Positions 2,625 to 33,458 of a stretch of 64,000 nt of DNA are shown here, in pieces. The translations under genes and the position numbers were made by a program. Each line of letters starts with the position of its first letter. Position 1 is the first letter of the stretch. The DNA is from Methanohalophilus mahii DSM 5219 (GTDB lineage: Archaea; Halobacteriota; Methanosarcinia; Methanosarcinales; Methanosarcinaceae). The stretch spans positions 1,798,001 through 1,862,000 of the forward strand of contig NC_014002.1 of NCBI RefSeq assembly GCF_000025865.1, in the 5' to 3' direction. Under the pieces are notes generated by a model, which saw only the letters and a program-made list of their open reading frames with translations, was not told the origin of the DNA and made no database searches.

Positions 2625-3730
2625 GCATTGCACAAATTTTTATAGAAATTCTGGCAGGAATTATATATGAGACCTGGTACCTTTTCGAAGAGGCAGCACC
2701 CTATCTTTTCCTCGGTTTCGGGATTGCCGGATTGCTGGAACTTGTGGTTTCCAATGAGAAGATCATTGGACATCTCGGCAGCGGTGCAGGCAAATTTAAA
2801 TCTGTGCTTAAGGCCTCTATTGCCGGAATTCCCCTGCCCCTGTGTTCCTGTGGTGTGATACCTGCGGCAATGTCCCTGAAAAAAAGAGGGGCAAATAATG
2901 GTGCCACCCTGTCCTTTTTGATATCGACACCCCAGACCGGAGCTGACTCAATCGCAATCACCTATGCCCTGCTTGATCCCATCATGACAGTATTCAGGCC
3001 CATCGCAACCTTCATAACCGCAGTTGGAGCAGGAATTACAAGCAATATAATGGAAAAGGACGTGACAGATACACCCCTTTCAAATCCCATTATGCTCTCA
3101 AAAAGGGAAGACACAACAAATCAGGGCTGTGATTGTGGCGGTGATGATTGCGAGCAAAAAGGCCTGAAAAAACGCGCCATTGATGCCATAAAATATGCTT
3201 ACGTGGAACTGCTGGGAGATATTGCAAAGTGGCTTATTGTGGGATTGCTGATAGCAGGAGTTATTTCCTATATCGTACCGGAGGAAATTGTGGGAGGCTA
3301 CCTTGGAGGCGGGATCGGTTCAATGATCTTAATGCTCTTTGTCGGGATTCCGCTATACATATGTGCCACCGCCTCCACACCTCTTGCAGCCGCCCTTATC
3401 GCCAAGGGCATGAGCCCGGGTACTGCCTTTGTGTTCCTGCTTGCAGGGCCGGCCACCAATGCTGCAACCATTACAATGGTCACGAAATTTATGGGCAGAA
3501 AGGCTGTTACCATTTATCTTGCAATCATAGCCCTCTTTGCGCTGATATTCGGGATATTGCTCGATCTAATATACATTCGAATGGGAATTGAGGCAACGGC
3601 CATTGTGGGAAGTGCAAGTGATCTGCTTCCCGCAGAAGTGAAAACTTTCTTTGCTTTGCTTCTGGCAGTAATGATAGCCTATTCCTTCATACAGAAAAGA
3701 AAAAGTGACGAGTGCCAGGATTGCTCCTGA
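2621..3730 (+). CDS. permease of the ArsP/UPF0718 (YraQ) family
   Basis: This 369-residue polytopic membrane protein has two related halves with the family motif PLCSCGVIP and the downstream STPQTGADS in the first half, and ATASTP and LLAGPATN in the second. A cytosolic linker between the halves carries CDCGGDDC, and the tail has CQDC, both possible metal-binding sites. Members such as ArsP export trivalent organoarsenicals; others are uncharacterised. The start at ATG 2621 overlaps the arsR-like stop and is preceded by AGAGGAA; an upstream GTG at 2591 is less likely. Coupling to an ArsR regulator supports a metalloid-efflux role, but the substrate is inferred. Confidence 0.85.
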   Translation: MSIAQIFIEILAGIIYETWYLFEEAAPYLFLGFGIAGLLELVVSNEKIIGHLGSGAGKFKSVLKASIAGIPLPLCSCGVIPAAMSLKKRGANNGATLSFLISTPQTGADSIAITYALLDPIMTVFRPIATFITAVGAGITSNIMEKDVTDTPLSNPIMLSKREDTTNQGCDCGGDDCEQKGLKKRAIDAIKYAYVELLGDIAKWLIVGLLIAGVISYIVPEEIVGGYLGGGIGSMILMLFVGIPLYICATASTPLAAALIAKGMSPGTAFVFLLAGPATNAATITMVTKFMGRKAVTIYLAIIALFALIFGILLDLIYIRMGIEATAIVGSASDLLPAEVKTFFALLLAVMIAYSFIQKRKSDECQDCS

Positions 3731-3782
3731 AAAGGAGGTAACTATAAAACATCTTAACCCAATTTCCAGAATGGGGTTTTGT

Positions 3783-5561
3783 ATGGATAAAGGCAATAGC
3801 ACGATCGAATCCAGATTGTCCGCCAACGGGAAAACGTTGCTGGAAAAACGCTATCTTTTAAGGGATGCAGAAGGGAAAGTCGCAGAAGAGCCCGGTGAGT
3901 TATTCGCCAGAGTTGCAAAGACTATTGCCAGAGTTGACAGCAGATACGGATACGATGTAGAAAAAACTGAAGATGATTTTTACCAGGTAATGGCAGACCT
4001 GGAATTTCTTCCCAATTCCCCCACCCTCATGAATGCGGGCACCGAGCTGGGGCAATTGAGTGCGTGTTTTGTTTTGCCTGTGGAAGATTCCCTGAAAAGT
4101 ATTTTCAAATCCCTGCAGGATATGAGCCTCATCCACCAATCCGGCGGTGGCACAGGATTCTCCTTTTCAAACCTGCGCCCCAAAGGAGATATCGTGGGCT
4201 CCACAAATGGCGTAGCTTCAGGACCCCTTTCCTTTATGACCATCTTTGATAAGGCAACGGATGTGATCAAGCAGGGTGGCAGACGCAGGGGAGCCAATAT
4301 GGGTGTGCTCAGGGTGGACCATCCGGATATCATTGAGTTTATCAGGGCCAAGGAAGATGAGGAACTGCTGCGCAATTTCAATCTCTCGGTGGGTGTTACA
4401 GATGAATTTATGGAGGCTGTCAGCCAGGACAGGGATTATGCACTCATAAATCCCCGAACCGGTAAAATTGAGAAGAGATTAAAAGCAAAGGATGTTTTTG
4501 ATCGGATAGTGACCTGTGCCTGCCGGACAGGAGATCCCGGCCTGCTTTTTCTGGATGAGATAAACCGCAGGCATCCCCTGAGTACAATCGGCACTATCGA
4601 GAGTACAAATCCCTGCGGAGAGGTACCACTTTTACCCTATGAATCATGCAACCTGGGCTCGATCAACCTTGCGCAAATGGTAAAGGAGGGGGCTATCGAC
4701 TGGGAGAAGTTGAAACAAACTGTCCATACAGGAGTGCATTTCCTGGATAATGTGATCGATGCCAACAAATACCCTCTCCCGCAGATCGGGCAGAGGACAA
4801 AACAAAACCGCAAGATCGGCCTGGGTGTTATGGGATTTGCCGCTATGCTGGCACGCCTGGGGATTCCTTACGATTGCCGGGAAGGAATCGCGACAGCGGA
4901 AAAAGTAATGAAGTTCACCCAGGACGAATCTGTGCAAAAATCTGTGGAACTCGGTGAGCAGCGGGGCAGTTTCCCGAACTTCCACAGGAGTGCTCTTGCA
5001 AGGGATTATCCGGCAATGCGCAATGCAACGGTGAATACCGTGGCCCCCACAGGCAGCCTGAGCATAATTGCAAATACCACTTCAGGAATTGAACCGATGT
5101 TCGCCCTGACCTACAGGCGCAATGTGATGGGAACACGGCTGACAGAGATCGATCCTGTTTTTGAGGAGATCGCAAGGAAACACGGATTCTACAGCAGCCA
5201 GCTGATGGAGGAAATCGCAGGTACTGGTTCCCTGCAAACCAGCCCGAACATACCGGAACAGACCAGACGAATCTTTGCCACCGCACTGGAAATCCAGCCC
5301 CGATGGCATGTGAGGATGCAGGCGGCTTTCCAGAAGCATGTGGATAATGCCGTTGCCAAGACCGTGAACCTGCCCCATGAGGCTACCGTAGAGGATTTCC
5401 GGGAGGTGTATATGCTGGCCTACCGGTTGAAGTGCAAGGGAATCGCTGCTTACCGTTATGGAAGCAAAGCTGAACAGGTGCTGGAGATCGGCAATGCCGG
5501 TGACAAAAAGGCTGGCAGCACCGGCACAGTAAAAGCCTGCACGAAAAACGGGTGTGAGTGA
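3783..5561 (+). CDS. nrdJ: class II (adenosylcobalamin-dependent) ribonucleoside-diphosphate reductase
   Basis: It reduces ribonucleotides to deoxyribonucleotides with a B12-generated thiyl radical. The active-site triad Asn276-x-Cys278-x-Glu280 (NPCGE) is present, as are the substrate-loop STNPCGE context, SGGGTGFSFS and a C-terminal CxxxxC tail (CTKNGC) that would re-reduce the active-site disulfide. There is no N-terminal ATP-cone of usual length, and at about 592 residues it is shorter than many relatives. The frame is open upstream to 3705 inside the permease gene; I chose ATG 3783, although a GGAGGT at 3735 leaves doubt. It follows the arsR-permease pair by about 50 bases. Confidence 0.9.
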   Translation: MDKGNSTIESRLSANGKTLLEKRYLLRDAEGKVAEEPGELFARVAKTIARVDSRYGYDVEKTEDDFYQVMADLEFLPNSPTLMNAGTELGQLSACFVLPVEDSLKSIFKSLQDMSLIHQSGGGTGFSFSNLRPKGDIVGSTNGVASGPLSFMTIFDKATDVIKQGGRRRGANMGVLRVDHPDIIEFIRAKEDEELLRNFNLSVGVTDEFMEAVSQDRDYALINPRTGKIEKRLKAKDVFDRIVTCACRTGDPGLLFLDEINRRHPLSTIGTIESTNPCGEVPLLPYESCNLGSINLAQMVKEGAIDWEKLKQTVHTGVHFLDNVIDANKYPLPQIGQRTKQNRKIGLGVMGFAAMLARLGIPYDCREGIATAEKVMKFTQDESVQKSVELGEQRGSFPNFHRSALARDYPAMRNATVNTVAPTGSLSIIANTTSGIEPMFALTYRRNVMGTRLTEIDPVFEEIARKHGFYSSQLMEEIAGTGSLQTSPNIPEQTRRIFATALEIQPRWHVRMQAAFQKHVDNAVAKTVNLPHEATVEDFREVYMLAYRLKCKGIAAYRYGSKAEQVLEIGNAGDKKAGSTGTVKACTKNGCE

Positions 5562-5635
5562 GGCAAATCGTGGTTAGCCGGTTTTGAGAAGTCGAATACT
5601 TCGTATATACAGATTTAATATCTGGTTTACAGAAA

Positions 5636-5668
5636 AATAAAAAAAGAGTGCAGCAAAGATTTGCTGCA
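5636..5668 (-). terminator. intrinsic terminator behind the orphan anchor ORF
   Basis: TGCAGCAAA (5649-5657) and TTTGCTGCA (5660-5668) form a perfect 9-bp stem with a 2-base gap. On the minus strand it is followed by CTCTTTTTTTATTTTT. It lies directly after the stop of the minus-strand anchor fragment. A shorter T-rich stretch on the plus side could let it also stop nrdJ transcription. Confidence 0.65.
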
Positions 5669-5669
5669 T

Positions 5670-5846
5670 TCAGGAATTCTTTTTCTTCATTGAATAAACC
5701 ACACCGATACCCACGAGTGCAATCAGGCCGATTATGCAAATGGTTGACAGTGATGGCACACCAGTGGAATCATCCTCTGCACCAGTGGATGCTTCCTGCC
5801 GGGTGTCTGTGGACTCACCGGTATCTTCAGCAAGGAGTGAATAATA
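5670..5846 (-). pseudogene. orphan C-terminal anchor of a surface protein (probable gene remnant)
   Basis: This 58-codon open frame has no ATG, GTG or TTG at its head and is bounded upstream by a stop at 5847-5849. It encodes a Thr/Ser/Asp/Glu-rich stretch (about residues 6-30), then VPSLS, a single hydrophobic span (about residues 34-51) and the basic tail SMKKKNS. This layout is that of archaeal C-terminal membrane-anchoring or sorting segments of exported proteins. A perfect terminator follows the stop at once, as at a true gene end, while the terminator of the large lipoprotein gene stands upstream. I read it as the surviving 3' end of a lost surface-protein gene; a very short functional protein is the alternative. 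Confidence 0.5.
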
Positions 5847-5937: not shown

Positions 5938-8900
5938 TTAAGGGTATTCAATCAGGCTTTCAAACACTTCCTTATCTCCCGTATCGAACTCTACCTCCTT
6001 ATCGAGATCCCATGCTTGCTCTCCATGTCCACCGGTCAGGTTCAGCACTATATGAGTTGGTGCTCCTTGCCATTCACTGAAACTGGCATTGAATGCATTT
6101 CCAACTTCAGTTAGGTTTTGGTAAGTTATGTTTCCGTCACCTTCGAATTCACCAATATCTTGAAGAGAGATTTTATCTGTTTCATCTGAACCATTCGTAT
6201 CGTTGTAAAGCATTACAGTCGAAGCCGTAGTGTTGAGATCATATGGCGATCCAGTTGCATCAGAATATGAGATTGGTTCTCCAGATTCATTGAAGAACGT
6301 ATAGTTAAATACAATACTGCCTTCTTCAATGCTTACGTTGGCATCTGAGATGTTTTGATCTTCTACAGTAGTCAAGAGGCTTTCAAACACTTCCTTATCT
6401 CCCGTATCGAACTCTACCTCAATGTTGGAAGAGTATGAATACTCATCATCCCCGCCGGCCAGATTCAGCACTATATGAGTTGGTGCTCCTTCCCATTCAC
6501 TGAAACTGACATTGAATGCATTTCCAACTTCGGTTAGGTTTTGGTAAGTTACTTTTCCGTCATCTCCGAATTCACCAATATCTTGGAGAGAGATGTTATC
6601 TGTTTTAGCTGAATCATTAGTGTCGTTGTAAAGCATTACAGTCGAATCCGTAATGTTGAGATCATACGGCGATCCAGTTGCAGCAGAATACGAGATTGGT
6701 TCTCCAGACTCATTGAAGAACGTATAGTTAAATACAATACTGCCTTCTTCAATCTTTACATCGGCATCTGATATGCTTGCAGTCTCTTTTTCGAAGAGCT
6801 CCAGAATGCTTTCCCAGTCATCCTCATCACTGGACTCCAGGTTAACAGTTAGTTCTTCACCATCTATAGTGAAATTATATGGACTAAACTCAAAGTCACT
6901 ATAATCTCCGTCAGCACCAATAATTTCAGATTCAGCATCCTCTACAGCTGCACTTACAAGAGTGCTAAGATCCCCGGTTTCTTCAAAATGACCCTTACTC
7001 TCATTCCATGTATAATCAGTCTCATTGTACTGGATGGTACTTACACCTGCTGCATTATTCAATGACTTGAAGTATCTGGCAAAGTCATCCCTGACTCCTC
7101 CAAGAATATCGAGGTCTGCGCCGGTTTCATTGTTTATAGAATCGCGGTAGTCCTTTAAATTCGACTGATTATAGGTGGCTGTAAGAGTATTGCTATCAAA
7201 AGAATATGCCAATGGTTCAGCTACTGGAGATTCTTCACCTACCATCCCAACAACGGCATAGTGAGCTTTAAGGTCCAAAGGATCATGAATTCTAACCGTA
7301 AGATTTTCTGTCGTTAGATTTTGTGTACCTTTTGATACATTAAAGACTACATCTGAAGAGCCTGTATCATTAGCAAATCCATTTAGGGCTATTACAGATG
7401 GATTACTGGTAGAAGCGATAGAGATGTTTACACTCAAATTTCCTTCAGCAGAGAACATACCTTCCAATTTCTCAGTTATAGTATCACCTTTTGCAAAGAG
7501 TATAACTTCTTCCCCAGGTATTTCCTCTTCATCAGTATCAATATGCGTTTCAGTGACAAATTTACCAATACCCACATCTACAGACGTATTAATTGCTTCC
7601 ATATTGGTGAATTCCATATGATCAGATGGTTCAATAGAGAACTCAAGTCCATCATATGTTCCAGAAAGTTGGCCAGTAAAATTCTTATCAATTTTATCTT
7701 TCAAAAATCCATCAATGAAAGCTTCATACGCTGTACCACCATCTACTGCCCTATCTTCCAATATCATATCTTCCACAGTGAAATTCCTTGGTTGTTTAGG
7801 TTCATCGATACCTAACATGCTAAAATTGAATGTTGTCAATTCATCGTCTGAAGTATTCAAGAAAGTAATTTTTGAATTGTCTCCATCAATCTCTAACTTA
7901 CTGAGATCAACAGGTTCATTTGCACTATTATTGATTTCACTTAGTTCAAACTGGATGGAACCTTGGCGAATATCAAATTCAAATGATTCAGGAGTATCAA
8001 CAACCATTAATACTGAAGTTGCATCAATACTAGTTCCTTCTTCAGCTTTTGTGGCGTTTGCACTGAAACTGAATACATGGTTGCCTGTAACTTCGGTTAA
8101 GTTAGATAAACTCAACTCGATGGTTTCGGTTCCATTAGCAACGTTACTTATATTAAACACACCACTACCAAATGAAACATTGCCATCATCCACGTTTATT
8201 GAATAATTCTCAGCGCTGTGCACATATATATCGCCTGGAATAGAAATGTTTACATTACCGTTGCTTAAATTCTCACCCAAAGTATAAGTGATCTTCAAAC
8301 TACTCAGTTCATCATTGCTAACTAATGTTTCATTCAATTCAAGATTGCCACGTGCAGTTCTAGAATCTACTGTTCCTTCACCGTCCACGTCACTTGCATT
8401 AATGGATCCAGCCACACTTATATTTACAGAAGTGCTTACAGTTACATTTGGTCTATCACTTTCTATATGTGCCCCATCAGCACCGTCAGTTACAGAAACG
8501 GAAGTCCCTGTTGAACCAGAAGATACCAAGTTAGATCTTACATTAATTGTAACACTTGGTACATTAGTATTGTTCAAATTGACAGTTGCACCTTCTGCAT
8601 TCACATTGATATTGTTTGCACTTCCACCATTCTGATTCCATGTGTTCGTTGAAACAGCATCAATATCAATATCCCCGTCTACTGTTGCCTCATTATTTAC
8701 AGTAGCATTTGGAGTATTTACAGTAAGATCACCTTCAATGGTAACATCATCATTAATATCCACGGTTGTAATATTTTTCATGTCTATATCGAGGTTACCT
8801 TCAAAAATTACATCTTCTATGGTGAGTGTACCATCAGATTCACCTGTAATACTACCATCAGCATATGTTCCTGATGCAATCGTTTCATCCCCTGATTCAA

Positions 8901-9993
8901 CTTTGATGTTTAAATCGTCGGGAGTGTCATCTGGAGTTGAACTGTCACTACTACCACCACTACTACCAAGTCCTGGTTTTGCTTTTATTGTTTCTAAAGC
9001 TTCACTGGCCTTACCCTTGTCACTGGCATTCACCAGGCCTTCTACAGTGATTTCTACACCGTCATTATTTACATCGACTTCAACTTCACTGCTTACATGA
9101 GAGCCTTCAGCACCAGCTGTTATCGTAATTGACGGGATGCTGGCATTCTCTGAAGCTACTACAGTAGCCCTTTGTGTAACAGTAACTTCCTGGTTAATAG
9201 TTCCAGATATCAGATTGACAGTTGCATTTTCTGCATTGGCATTGATCTGGTTTGCATCACCATACTGGTTCCATGTATTAGGTGCAACTGCATCGATGTT
9301 TATTGTACCATCAACCTGTGCATGATTATCCACGGTTGCATGTGGTGTATTGACAGTAAGGTCTCCCTCAATGACAACATCAGAACCTAATGTAATGAGA
9401 CCGTCAGTATCCCCGTTAATGTTCAAATCGCCGCCATAAGTACCACCTATATGAGAGCCTTCAGCACCAGCTGTTATCGTAATTGACGGGATGCTAGCAT
9501 TCTCTGAAGCTACTATAGTAGCCCTTTGTGTAACAGTAACCTCCTGGTTAATAGTTCCAGATATCAGATTGACAGTTGCATTTTCTGCATTGACATTGAT
9601 CTGGTTTGCATCACCATACTGGTTCCATGTATTAGGTGCAACTGCATCGATGTTTATTGTACCATCAACCTGTGCATGATTATCCACGGTTGCATGTGGT
9701 GTATTGACAGTAAGGTCTCCCTCAATGACAACATCAGAACCTAATGTAATGAGACCGTCAGTATCCCCATCAATGGTCACATCACCATATGTACCACCCG
9801 GCACTGTAAAATCACCTGAATCAACTGTCTCTGTCATGTCAGTTGCGGACTCAGGTTCAGTCTCCGGAATTATATCTTCATCATCTGTACCATTATCTAA
9901 ACAACCTGTTGGCATCACTACGATTGCTGAGATTAGGAAAATCAAAACAACCAATAAAAATGGCCTAATATTCGTATCACGATTTGTTTGCAT
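5938..9993 (-). CDS. giant acidic surface lipoprotein with internal tandem repeats
   Basis: The 1351-residue protein begins with a membrane segment (about residues 12-27) and a lipobox-like PTGC (Cys near residue 31) followed by an acidic linker, so it is probably exported and lipid-anchored. Residues about 65-300 hold two nearly identical 118-residue repeats rich in T/V/I/N/D with motifs such as DGLITLGSDVVIEGDLTVN, and a diverged third copy lies at about 365-490. Such short periodic beta-strand patterns suggest a right-handed beta-helix. The C-terminal 430 residues carry two 141-residue repeats (FNYTFFNESGEPISYS) and a weaker third. Many N-x-S/T sites suggest N-glycosylation. GGGGG precedes the ATG. 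No function is known; adhesion or cell-envelope structure is plausible. Confidence 0.85.
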   Translation of the reverse strand: MQTNRDTNIRPFLLVVLIFLISAIVVMPTGCLDNGTDDEDIIPETEPESATDMTETVDSGDFTVPGGTYGDVTIDGDTDGLITLGSDVVIEGDLTVNTPHATVDNHAQVDGTINIDAVAPNTWNQYGDANQINVNAENATVNLISGTINQEVTVTQRATIVASENASIPSITITAGAEGSHIGGTYGGDLNINGDTDGLITLGSDVVIEGDLTVNTPHATVDNHAQVDGTINIDAVAPNTWNQYGDANQINANAENATVNLISGTINQEVTVTQRATVVASENASIPSITITAGAEGSHVSSEVEVDVNNDGVEITVEGLVNASDKGKASEALETIKAKPGLGSSGGSSDSSTPDDTPDDLNIKVESGDETIASGTYADGSITGESDGTLTIEDVIFEGNLDIDMKNITTVDINDDVTIEGDLTVNTPNATVNNEATVDGDIDIDAVSTNTWNQNGGSANNINVNAEGATVNLNNTNVPSVTINVRSNLVSSGSTGTSVSVTDGADGAHIESDRPNVTVSTSVNISVAGSINASDVDGEGTVDSRTARGNLELNETLVSNDELSSLKITYTLGENLSNGNVNISIPGDIYVHSAENYSINVDDGNVSFGSGVFNISNVANGTETIELSLSNLTEVTGNHVFSFSANATKAEEGTSIDATSVLMVVDTPESFEFDIRQGSIQFELSEINNSANEPVDLSKLEIDGDNSKITFLNTSDDELTTFNFSMLGIDEPKQPRNFTVEDMILEDRAVDGGTAYEAFIDGFLKDKIDKNFTGQLSGTYDGLEFSIEPSDHMEFTNMEAINTSVDVGIGKFVTETHIDTDEEEIPGEEVILFAKGDTITEKLEGMFSAEGNLSVNISIASTSNPSVIALNGFANDTGSSDVVFNVSKGTQNLTTENLTVRIHDPLDLKAHYAVVGMVGEESPVAEPLAYSFDSNTLTATYNQSNLKDYRDSINNETGADLDILGGVRDDFARYFKSLNNAAGVSTIQYNETDYTWNESKGHFEETGDLSTLVSAAVEDAESEIIGADGDYSDFEFSPYNFTIDGEELTVNLESSDEDDWESILELFEKETASISDADVKIEEGSIVFNYTFFNESGEPISYSAATGSPYDLNITDSTVMLYNDTNDSAKTDNISLQDIGEFGDDGKVTYQNLTEVGNAFNVSFSEWEGAPTHIVLNLAGGDDEYSYSSNIEVEFDTGDKEVFESLLTTVEDQNISDANVSIEEGSIVFNYTFFNESGEPISYSDATGSPYDLNTTASTVMLYNDTNGSDETDKISLQDIGEFEGDGNITYQNLTEVGNAFNASFSEWQGAPTHIVLNLTGGHGEQAWDLDKEVEFDTGDKEVFESLIEYP
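5954..6778 (-). repeat. tandem repeat of 423 bp encoding the lipoprotein C-terminus
   Basis: The segment beginning at 5954 recurs at 6377 with an offset of 423 bases (141 codons), keeping the frame. Both copies share long identical stretches, for example the first 40 or so bases, and code for the FNESGEPISYS unit. A more diverged protein-level copy precedes them. The two DNA copies are similar enough to recombine. Confidence 0.75.
9097..9804 (-). repeat. near-identical tandem repeat of 354 bp encoding the N-terminal domain
   Basis: The unit starting at 9097 is repeated at 9451 with an exact 354-base offset (118 codons). Over about the first 315 bases only a handful of substitutions separate the copies, and they then drift apart. 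This shows a recent in-frame duplication within the lipoprotein gene, and copy number may vary between strains. Confidence 0.85.
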
Positions 9994-10343
9994 GAGTATC
10001 CCCCATTGAAATTCAAATTTGGATTAGAGAATGAACGTGTTGCAATTTATGGAACTCCATTTATATAAATTTAAGGGATTGGAAACAAGTGGTAGTATAC
10101 ACAAAAGAGCCGTTGTGCATAGCATGTCAACGATTAATTAAAAATCTAATTTAGTAAAAATGATACGTGACCTGAAATTAGCTAGCAAGCAAAGGATTGG
10201 TTGACCCAAAAACTCAAAAGGTAATTGAGTGGTAATTCATGTATATACCTCTGGTTTGAATCCATTATTGTATTTATATTATAATATTTGCAAAAAAACG
10301 TATTTTTATTATTGAATGTATACTATTTTTAAAATATTTTAGT
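9994..10343. other. 350-base AT-rich gap with the lipoprotein promoter
   Basis: No gene is visible here. On the minus strand ATTTATATAA at 10061-10070 is a good TATA box; transcription would start near 10040, leaving a leader of about 45 bases that contains GGGGG six bases before the lipoprotein ATG. T-rich sequence just below 10343 would end the minus-strand tRNA transcript. A weak hairpin (ACTCAA/TTGAGT) lies near 10213-10231. Nothing else is recognised. Confidence 0.5.
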
Positions 10344-10415
10344 AGTCCCGCCCGGATTCGAACCAGGGTCTTCGGCTCCAAAGGCCGAAAGGATTGACCA
10401 CTACCCTACGGGACT
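10344..10415 (-). tRNA. tRNA-Gln (anticodon TTG)
   Basis: The 72-base minus-strand gene folds as a cloverleaf. The acceptor stem is AGTCCCG paired with CGGGACT, the anticodon stem TCGGC/GCCGA encloses loop CTTTGGA with anticodon TTG, and the T arm holds GGTTCGAATCC. No CCA is encoded. In methanogens this tRNA is charged through the glutamyl-tRNA amidotransferase route (established knowledge, not visible here). Confidence 0.95.
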
Positions 10416-10548: not shown

Positions 10549-10980
10549 ATGACAGGAAGATTGCCCGACTCGGATAACCCGGTGTTTGCCCGCTGGATGA
10601 AAGGGGAAATGAGCAGGATCAACAGGGCGATAGTGGCACAGAGAAAGACACTGGCCCAGTTGCTTGAAGAAGAGGTGCCACAATCCAGAACCCGGGTGGA
10701 GAGAAGGTACGTATTCGACAAGCAGGTTATCAGGATGCTGGGAGATAAACTGCCTGCAGAATTGCGTGACAGACTGAAACTTCCCATCCTCTTTTTCTTT
10801 GATTTCCGTGTGGAAGACAGTTGTTTCCTTAATGACAGACATGCTCTTGAGGCACTGCAAATGCTCTCAGAATTGGGACATATGTACCGTATGCGTCAGG
10901 GCAAGGTATGGGTTGGCAAAAGTATGGCCTACTCGATCATGCGCAAATACCCGACTGCCATACAGATCACAATGGGCTGA
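10549..10980 (+). CDS. UPF0216 (DUF61) family protein
   Basis: This 143-residue soluble protein matches the archaeal UPF0216 family, recognised by NPVFARWMKGEMSRINRAIV near the start and a middle FFFDFR segment. The family has no known function; it is small, basic and conserved in euryarchaea. An upstream TTG (10531) is in frame, but GGGAGGGAA lies five bases before ATG 10549, which decides the start. It is divergent from tRNA-Gln and convergent with the DRG GTPase gene, whose stop is only 10 bases away. Confidence 0.8.
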   Translation: MTGRLPDSDNPVFARWMKGEMSRINRAIVAQRKTLAQLLEEEVPQSRTRVERRYVFDKQVIRMLGDKLPAELRDRLKLPILFFFDFRVEDSCFLNDRHALEALQMLSELGHMYRMRQGKVWVGKSMAYSIMRKYPTAIQITMG

Positions 10981-31912: not shown

Positions 31913-32680
31913 TCATCCCACAATTTCAATCTGTGAACCATCACTCACCTCAATCTCTGGTGTACCCTTGTAATCTATGATCTTGCCTGTCACAAGCACA
32001 TTTTTACCGTCATAGTAAGCATCAGGAGATTGGGGAAAGTTTGACCAGCTGTCCTGCCATATAATTACAGTGAAGTAGCCTTTATAAGGGTCATGGAAAT
32101 TTAGATAGATTATACCATCCTCTTCATTTTTGGCCGTTGATAACACTGTACCCTCGACAGTTCTCACCTGGCCTACATAGTTATCTGCTTCCAGGTAAAA
32201 GATTACTGCTGTGTCACTATTTGCCAGATAGGACCAGATTCCCACCTGCTCATTTCTTGCCCGTTGTTGTGCATCGTTGAAAATATGCTGATATTTTATA
32301 TCGGGCTCATAGGTTTTGGACAGAGCCAGACCTTCTTCCACAAGCTCCCTGTTTACCAGTTCACCGTCAAGCCAAACATATCTCAATAAACGGTCATAAG
32401 TATCCCGGTTACTGCTATCCCCTTCCAGCAAAACCTGCTTACCTTCCACCCGGGTGGACAAATAATCTTTTGCCTCGGCATAATAGGATTCATCTATCTC
32501 CGGTGAATCTATCCCGATAAGTCTCACTTTCTCCCCGGAATCCGTCACGAAAGTATCCCCATCTATCACTTTGACAACCGTTGTAGTCGAGTTCACAATC
32601 CGGTTCTCATCCGAAGAAAGACACCCACACGAAATGAGTATAAGAAGGGTAACGATCAAGATCAATGACTTTTTAAACAT
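31913..32680 (-). CDS. exported thermonuclease-family lipoprotein with OB-fold tail
   Basis: This 255-residue protein has a signal segment (residues 4-18) ending in a lipobox-like SCGC, so it is likely anchored outside the cell. The staphylococcal-nuclease domain (about residues 33-150) holds VIDGDTF, RLIGIDSPEI (metal-binding Asp), an Arg in DRLLRYVW and the final ALSKTY region, keeping the catalytic Arg/Glu framework. The remaining 100 residues resemble an OB-fold nucleic-acid-binding domain. It would digest extracellular DNA or RNA. It is divergent from the matrixin-type protease. Confidence 0.88.
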   Translation of the reverse strand: MFKKSLILIVTLLILISCGCLSSDENRIVNSTTTVVKVIDGDTFVTDSGEKVRLIGIDSPEIDESYYAEAKDYLSTRVEGKQVLLEGDSSNRDTYDRLLRYVWLDGELVNRELVEEGLALSKTYEPDIKYQHIFNDAQQRARNEQVGIWSYLANSDTAVIFYLEADNYVGQVRTVEGTVLSTAKNEEDGIIYLNFHDPYKGYFTVIIWQDSWSNFPQSPDAYYDGKNVLVTGKIIDYKGTPEIEVSDGSQIEIVG

Positions 32681-32753: not shown

Positions 32754-33458
32754 TTGATTGGCATGAAAAAGCCGGCTAAAAAAATCCTTTTTGTACTACT
32801 TGCCATTATGATATTATTCACCGGTACCTCCCTTGCAAATATTGAAAAAATATCAGACGACCCCTGGGAACACAGCCCCATAACAGTATATATAGATGAT
32901 AAGGATACGCCTGAACACTACAGCCCCACCTACAGAGAACAGGTAGAAATTGCCCTGGATTACTGGGAAAAGGGTGGCAACGGAGCCCTCAGTTACCAGC
33001 CTGTGTTCAGAATCATCGACAATCCTGACGCTGACATAAATGTTCGGTGGGTGGAAAATCTTGAAAAGGTCGAAGGAGCCGATGAAGGAGTGGCCGGATA
33101 CTGTAGACCCACCATTACCGGGAACAAATACCTGCATGCTGAAATCGTGCTGGAGGTCGGAAATTACCAGGGGTTTTCATGGGTACAATATGGCGATGCA
33201 AACATGCAGGAGGTATCCAAGCATGAGGTAGGACATGCCCTGGGACTGGGCCACAGTACTGACCGCTCGGATATCATGTATCCCAGTTATGAACAACGTG
33301 ACAACATCAATCCCCTTCTCCTGAAATCAACTTTACCCTACCTGATAGGTGCACTCATAGTAATCGTAACCATAATCGGATACCACGGCATCGGCTGGAG
33401 AAAAATGCGCAAGCAGCGCAAACAAATCGAGAAGGATGTTTTTGAAAGCAAAAAATGA
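32754..33458 (+). CDS. matrixin-type zinc metalloprotease, membrane anchored
   Basis: This 234-residue exported protein has a signal peptide (about residues 4-28), a metzincin zinc site HEVGHALGLGH at residues 157-167 with Glu158 as catalytic base, and the downstream Met-turn-like DIMYPSY. A C-terminal membrane span (about residues 200-217) with a basic tail holds it at the cell surface. Start: TTG 32754 with GGAGG four bases upstream, or ATG 32763, 13 bases from it. It overlaps the ogt start by four bases. Substrate unknown; envelope or peptide processing is plausible. Confidence 0.87.
   Translation: MIGMKKPAKKILFVLLAIMILFTGTSLANIEKISDDPWEHSPITVYIDDKDTPEHYSPTYREQVEIALDYWEKGGNGALSYQPVFRIIDNPDADINVRWVENLEKVEGADEGVAGYCRPTITGNKYLHAEIVLEVGNYQGFSWVQYGDANMQEVSKHEVGHALGLGHSTDRSDIMYPSYEQRDNINPLLLKSTLPYLIGALIVIVTIIGYHGIGWRKMRKQRKQIEKDVFESKK

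Follow-up and report, generated by a model that had tools for sequence, protein, structure and literature searches.

The closest described counterparts of the gene treated here are the adhesin-like proteins (ALPs) of methanogens of the Methanobrevibacter type, large surface proteins that combine a right-handed beta-helix with repeated immunoglobulin-like (Ig-like) domains and in which many repeats are unmatched in Pfam (PMC11532034). Within the same archaeal family as our organism, surface proteins of Methanosarcina carry tandem repeats of 42-54 amino acids, of the RIVW, LGxL, LVIVD and LGFP types (PMC2447325). The present gene lies at positions 5938-9993, on the minus strand, of a 64-kb stretch of the Methanohalophilus mahii genome that was analysed as a whole (the window). 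It is an open reading frame of 1351 codons with an ATG start, is present as a single copy in the genome, and has relatives in Methanohalophilus and Methanolobus. Its repeated modules, in contrast to those of Methanosarcina, are 118 and 141 amino acids long and have no Pfam match. ALPs use other membrane-anchoring domains, whereas the M. mahii protein has an N-terminal lipobox, and no sequence relation to the ALPs was detected. The beta-helix that characterizes ALPs is found here as a predicted fold but not by any Pfam beta-helix model, and no Big-type Pfam match occurs in the protein, the archaeal Big domain (ABD) itself being absent from Pfam (PMC11532034). We consider it likely that the product is a modular stalk or adhesin of the cell surface, anchored by lipid and N-glycosylated, which narrows a preliminary description of the sequence that had assigned it no function. 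That description had noticed neither the BslA-like domain nor the bacterial relatives treated below, nor the variable locus and the relic of a gene next to this one.

Modules and repeats of the M. mahii protein

Two tandem duplications, both already reported in the preliminary description, lie within the gene. The first has a period of 354 bp (118 codons), with copy 1 at 9448-9786 and copy 2 at 9094-9432, and its copies are 97.1% identical over 339 nt (10 differences). The second, with a period of 423 bp (141 codons), has copy 1 at 6377-6778 and copy 2 at 5954-6355, which are 88.6% identical over 402 nt (46 differences). Both periods are divisible by three and preserve the frame, so that the gene has the near-identical in-frame tandem repeats that mark a length-variable repeat protein. 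Elsewhere in the window Tandem Repeats Finder (TRF) gives just one further tandem repeat, a trivial one, and both duplications are therefore far beyond chance. A third copy of the 118-residue unit, older, diverged and overlooked in the preliminary description, occupies residues 363-545 or thereabouts (8359-8907) and shows 52-55% identity to copies 1 and 2.

The 118-residue unit is predicted to form a beta-solenoid, in agreement with the earlier suggestion of beta-helix rungs in the N-terminal repeats. For the tandem copies, residues 70-182 and 188-300, the AlphaFold2 (AF2) model reaches a predicted local distance difference test (pLDDT) score of about 90, as it does over model residues 1-240 and 311-390 generally, and the predicted solenoid runs unbroken across the junction of the 354-bp duplication. 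The third copy, also recognized by a profile match, is modelled at pLDDT 80-94 over most of its length and is preceded by an acidic, Gly/Ser-containing linker of low model confidence. Compared with known solenoids, the model scores VIA Z 17-18 at about 9% identity, the best matches being phage tailspikes and alginate lyases of polysaccharide lyase family 6 (PL6); because identity is so low, these matches speak for the fold only.

The hydrophobic N-terminus, a predicted Sec-type signal peptide with lipobox (9901-9993), ends in IVVMPTGC-LDN, the equivalent in Methanolobus relatives being PSGC-LD. It thus ends in Gly-Cys, as an archaeal lipobox (Gly/Ala-Cys) does, and Cys31 is the only cysteine in the whole protein. 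In haloarchaea the usual lipobox is LAGC, with Gly at 98.8% and Cys at 100% (PMC2945643). The protein is probably lipid-anchored through Cys31, as had been proposed for it. N-X-S/T sequons number 57, against an expectation of 23.2 +/- 4.1 from 2000 shuffles (maximum 42), and Asp plus Glu make up 18% of residues against 3.3% for Lys plus Arg, for a computed isoelectric point (pI) of 4.05. The richness in glycosylation sites and acidic residues noted earlier is thereby confirmed, the latter as a generic trait of halophiles that is not special to this lipoprotein, since every relative examined shares the low pI.

Following the third solenoid module, at about residues 546-656 (8026-8358), is an Ig-like domain resembling BslA (YuaB) and YweA of Bacillus. 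The resemblance is one of fold, with sequence similarity detectable through a family profile: profile A3 finds BslA (4bhu) as its top match in the PDB, at an expect value (E) of 7e-4, and Foldseek returns BslA/YweA (4bhu, 5mkd) with target template modelling (TM) scores of 0.57-0.61, for a model whose pLDDT is only about 55-73 in this region. The M. mahii domain falls below the cutoff of the Pfam BslA family PF17735 (17.2 vs 38.7 bits), which relatives in four genomes (G034, G040, G041 and G045) pass. BslA owes its surface activity to hydrophobic caps, including cap 1, L77-S78-L79, and cap 3, L153-S154-I155 (PMC5532214). In the profile alignment, which takes in the alignable cap positions and leaves cap 3 outside, L79 of BslA corresponds to Asn in five of five archaeal rows. 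The second cap, which we take to be L-A-L, corresponds there to Ser, Glu or Thr, then Asn, then a hydrophobic residue. Unlike its Bacillus counterparts, then, the domain sits inside a large lipoprotein and has polar residues at alignable cap positions; because these cap residues are not conserved, it probably does not act as a hydrophobin.

Residues 705-1071 (6781-7881) form an orphan region that has no Pfam match, no credible relative among 393 genomes from the phylum, no similarity to the protein's other modules and a low-confidence model. Its single weak match among those genomes (21% identity, E 0.003) is not believed. The protein then ends in the two copies of the 141-residue unit, at 6376-6780 and 5953-6357. 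The unit, which has no Pfam match, is predicted to be an Ig/fibronectin type III-like (Ig/fn3-like) domain: the copies are modelled at pLDDT about 80 and resemble tandem Ig/fn3 domains, and the best Foldseek match of the C-terminal model is to domains 4-5 of the Bacillus anthracis S-layer protein Sap (E 6e-5). For the whole protein, NCBIfam gave no match, and Pfam gave neither an S-layer homology (SLH) domain nor, up to E 1, any S-layer family domain. Weak Pfam matches to POR_N, LptD_N, T2SSN, SUFBD, bactofilin, BsuPI and the Shr-like HID, all below cutoff, were set aside as chance or generic beta-repeat similarity, and PDB matches of the module profiles to titin and antibodies were dismissed as chance.

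Relatives among archaea and bacteria

Relatives were matched in 11 of 112 genomes searched from the family, all within three genera, with four weak g13 matches covering the N-terminus only; most Methanohalophilus congeners have none. Intact relatives, 772-1925 residues long, have the lipobox and modules in common, but the module that is amplified differs by species. Every intact relative examined carries in-frame repeats, with all periods divisible by three. The most extensive is in a Methanolobus (G041, L026:6840-11022), where a 300-bp unit is repeated 13.9 times at 99% match in a tandem array that ends the protein. Two other genomes each have a 264-bp unit in two copies, the unit of G049 being other than that of G056, while G054 has two copies of a 276-bp unit, G034 a 1179-bp repeat, and G040 both 1179-bp and 879-bp repeats. 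Copies of the 141-residue domain cluster by species rather than by position, and therefore point to duplication, or else homogenisation, that took place separately in each lineage. This comparison, made with one genome per species, supports repeat expansion between species, the sense in which the earlier label "repeat-expanding" stands; within a species repeat number may vary as well. In one Methanolobus relative (G045, L027:5586-7438), a single-base difference within the solenoid module splits the gene into two frames, as a pseudogene, a sequencing error or an off state. Two relatives (L024:7682-12463 and L025:7624-12138) have at their C-terminus a domain of some 330 residues that is absent from the M. 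mahii protein and is 35% identical to part of a bacterial SLH protein (L091).

A search of named genomes with the whole protein returned 17 pattern matches, none of them a confirmed relative, but the profile of the 141-residue domain did find bacterial relatives. One is a 915-residue lipoprotein of Halanaerobacter jeridensis (locus L088; 33% identity, 78 bits). Another, from genome G644 (locus L091) of the same bacterial phylum, is a 3045-residue protein with three SLH domains, in which the solenoid module is also found (42% identity over 95 residues) alongside the Ig-like domain (34%), and which shares the C-terminal domain of the relatives from G034 and G040 (35% over 325-348 residues). With the solenoid profile, matches were obtained in 6 of 199 genomes from that phylum, H. 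jeridensis included by way of another protein; the profile's match to the 141-residue-domain lipoprotein of H. jeridensis is weak, with E 5e-4 for a nominal 1000 sequences and biased composition, and only suggestive. The 141-residue Ig-like domain is thus common to both bacterial proteins, while the solenoid is clear in one and weak in the other. In contrast to the M. mahii protein, these proteins have other extra domains, lack the BslA-like domain, and are anchored by SLH domains (G644) or a bacterial lipobox (H. jeridensis). As judged by sequence similarity, the modules cross the border between archaea and bacteria with a differing anchor.

Halanaerobiales produce trimethylamine from glycine betaine, which is degraded by Halanaerobacter species other than H. 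jeridensis, and Methanohalophilus consumes the trimethylamine (PMC5023251); because of this feeding relationship contact and gene exchange are plausible, and no more. The solenoid and 141-residue modules could be a surface toolkit that halophilic methanogens exchange with the fermenting bacteria that are their partners, with a lipobox in place of SLH or the reverse as anchor and with repeat numbers adjusted, and might mediate contact between the partners, an idea that we hold to be speculative and quite improbable.

A locus of surface-gene turnover

The lipoprotein gene is placed between nrdJ, a ribonucleotide reductase gene (3705-5561, plus strand) with an orthologue in eight of eight genomes of the genus, and tRNA-Gln(TTG) (10342-10415, minus strand), found at this border in each genome compared. 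The interval between them is 19 bp long in G036, where the site is empty, and spans 4.8 kb in M. mahii; in G032, G035 and G034 it is 5.7, 6.6 and 15.7 kb, respectively. In G034 a related lipoprotein gene adjoins the tRNA in the same orientation and is followed by more surface-type genes, one of which (L045:8013-11249) encodes a protein with Ca2+-stabilised adhesin repeats. About 107 bp downstream of the M. mahii lipoprotein gene is a relic (5670-5831, minus strand) in which only the 3' end of a gene for a PGF-pre-PGF surface protein survives, encoding the C-terminal membrane-anchor tail, the remainder being gone. Two congeners, G035 and G032, have intact PGF-pre-PGF genes, which carry TIGR04213 and whose 3' ends are 83-84% identical in DNA sequence to positions 5560-5831; the similarity ends abruptly at 5831. 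Because the contents of the interval differ among congeners and the relic of a lost gene persists, genes for surface proteins have come, gone and been replaced at this locus.

The neighbouring gene at 10549 was considered as a GINS-like protein; this was ruled out, and it is a member of DUF61. Farther away in the window, 32754-33458 encodes a small matrixin-type (M10) metalloprotease with a signal peptide and a C-terminal membrane segment, unusual-looking for an archaeon, and 31913-32680 what is probably a lipoprotein, with a staphylococcal-nuclease-type domain followed at the C-terminus by an OB-fold match below cutoff.

Function and significance

The features described above suggest how a stalk or adhesin of this kind may be built. 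The lipobox cysteine would hold the protein at the membrane by its N-terminus; an acidic linker would lead into a beta-solenoid produced by in-frame tandem duplication of the 118-residue module; and a second linker, the third solenoid module, the BslA-like Ig domain and the orphan region would follow, with the two tandem Ig/fn3-like domains reaching outward. Stalk length would depend on how many whole modules the protein has and, because every duplication adds a complete structural unit, could change without misfolding. Different species have amplified different modules of the same family, and the gene sits at a locus of surface-gene turnover and has several modules in common with bacterial surface proteins bearing other anchors. 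The sequences themselves show the repeats and their frame, the homology of the modules, the turnover of the locus and the gene relic; the fold and the lipid anchor are predictions, and we infer surface exposure, glycosylation, a role in adhesion or spacing and length variation within a species. Several observations weigh against this interpretation: the middle 370 residues or so are an orphan with a poor structural model, the C-terminal fold is only moderately confident (VIA Z of at most 6), the lipobox differs from LAGC at the two positions upstream of Gly-Cys, where the classic Leu-Ala is lacking, and the repeat comparison, made with one genome per species, bears on change between species.

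The S-layer protein that heads the Foldseek matches of the C-terminal half, the three SLH domains of one bacterial relative and the PGF-pre-PGF surface proteins encoded at the locus in congeners would also fit a structural part of the cell envelope rather than an adhesin, whether an accessory S-layer or sheath protein or a spacer holding the S-layer off the membrane. The absence of the gene from most congeners, which makes it inessential to the envelope, and of any S-layer Pfam domain from the protein render this rather unlikely. Somewhat less probable still is a carbohydrate-binding or carbohydrate-cleaving surface protein whose solenoid works like a polysaccharide lyase or tailspike: such proteins are its best structural matches, and relatives carry chitobiase-C/Fn3_assoc and carboxypeptidase-regulatory modules, but any beta-solenoid yields matches of this kind, no enzyme profile scored above its cutoff in the M. 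mahii protein, and tandem copies would duplicate any active site.

The truncated relic downstream, the lack here of a C-terminal domain that follows the Ig-like repeats in two relatives, and the frameshift in one Methanolobus relative could be taken as signs that the gene is a functionless, decaying or chimeric leftover of rearrangement at the locus. However, the frame of 1351 codons is intact, the signal peptide is kept, and the ratio of nonsynonymous to synonymous substitution (dN/dS) between repeat copies is below one (0.47 and 0.63, from few changes), so that we judge decay very improbable. Repeats often cause assembly error, yet an artefact is hardly conceivable here, where the copies of each repeat are non-identical, the genome has been finished as one replicon (PMC3017947) and relatives have comparable repeats.

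The modular surface stalk or adhesin that we favour is, as surface proteins built from repeats go, ordinary in kind, but its cross-domain module pool is unusually wide. Such proteins are widespread; here, every duplicated unit takes in an entire predicted structural module, the choice of amplified module within the family varies by species, and bacterial proteins that are anchored differently contain these modules too. The analysis defines a 141-residue extracellular domain lacking in Pfam and points to an archaeal BslA-type Ig domain that has probably lost the hydrophobin caps. In addition, it identifies in Methanohalophilus a variable locus of surface-protein genes at which isolates can be compared.

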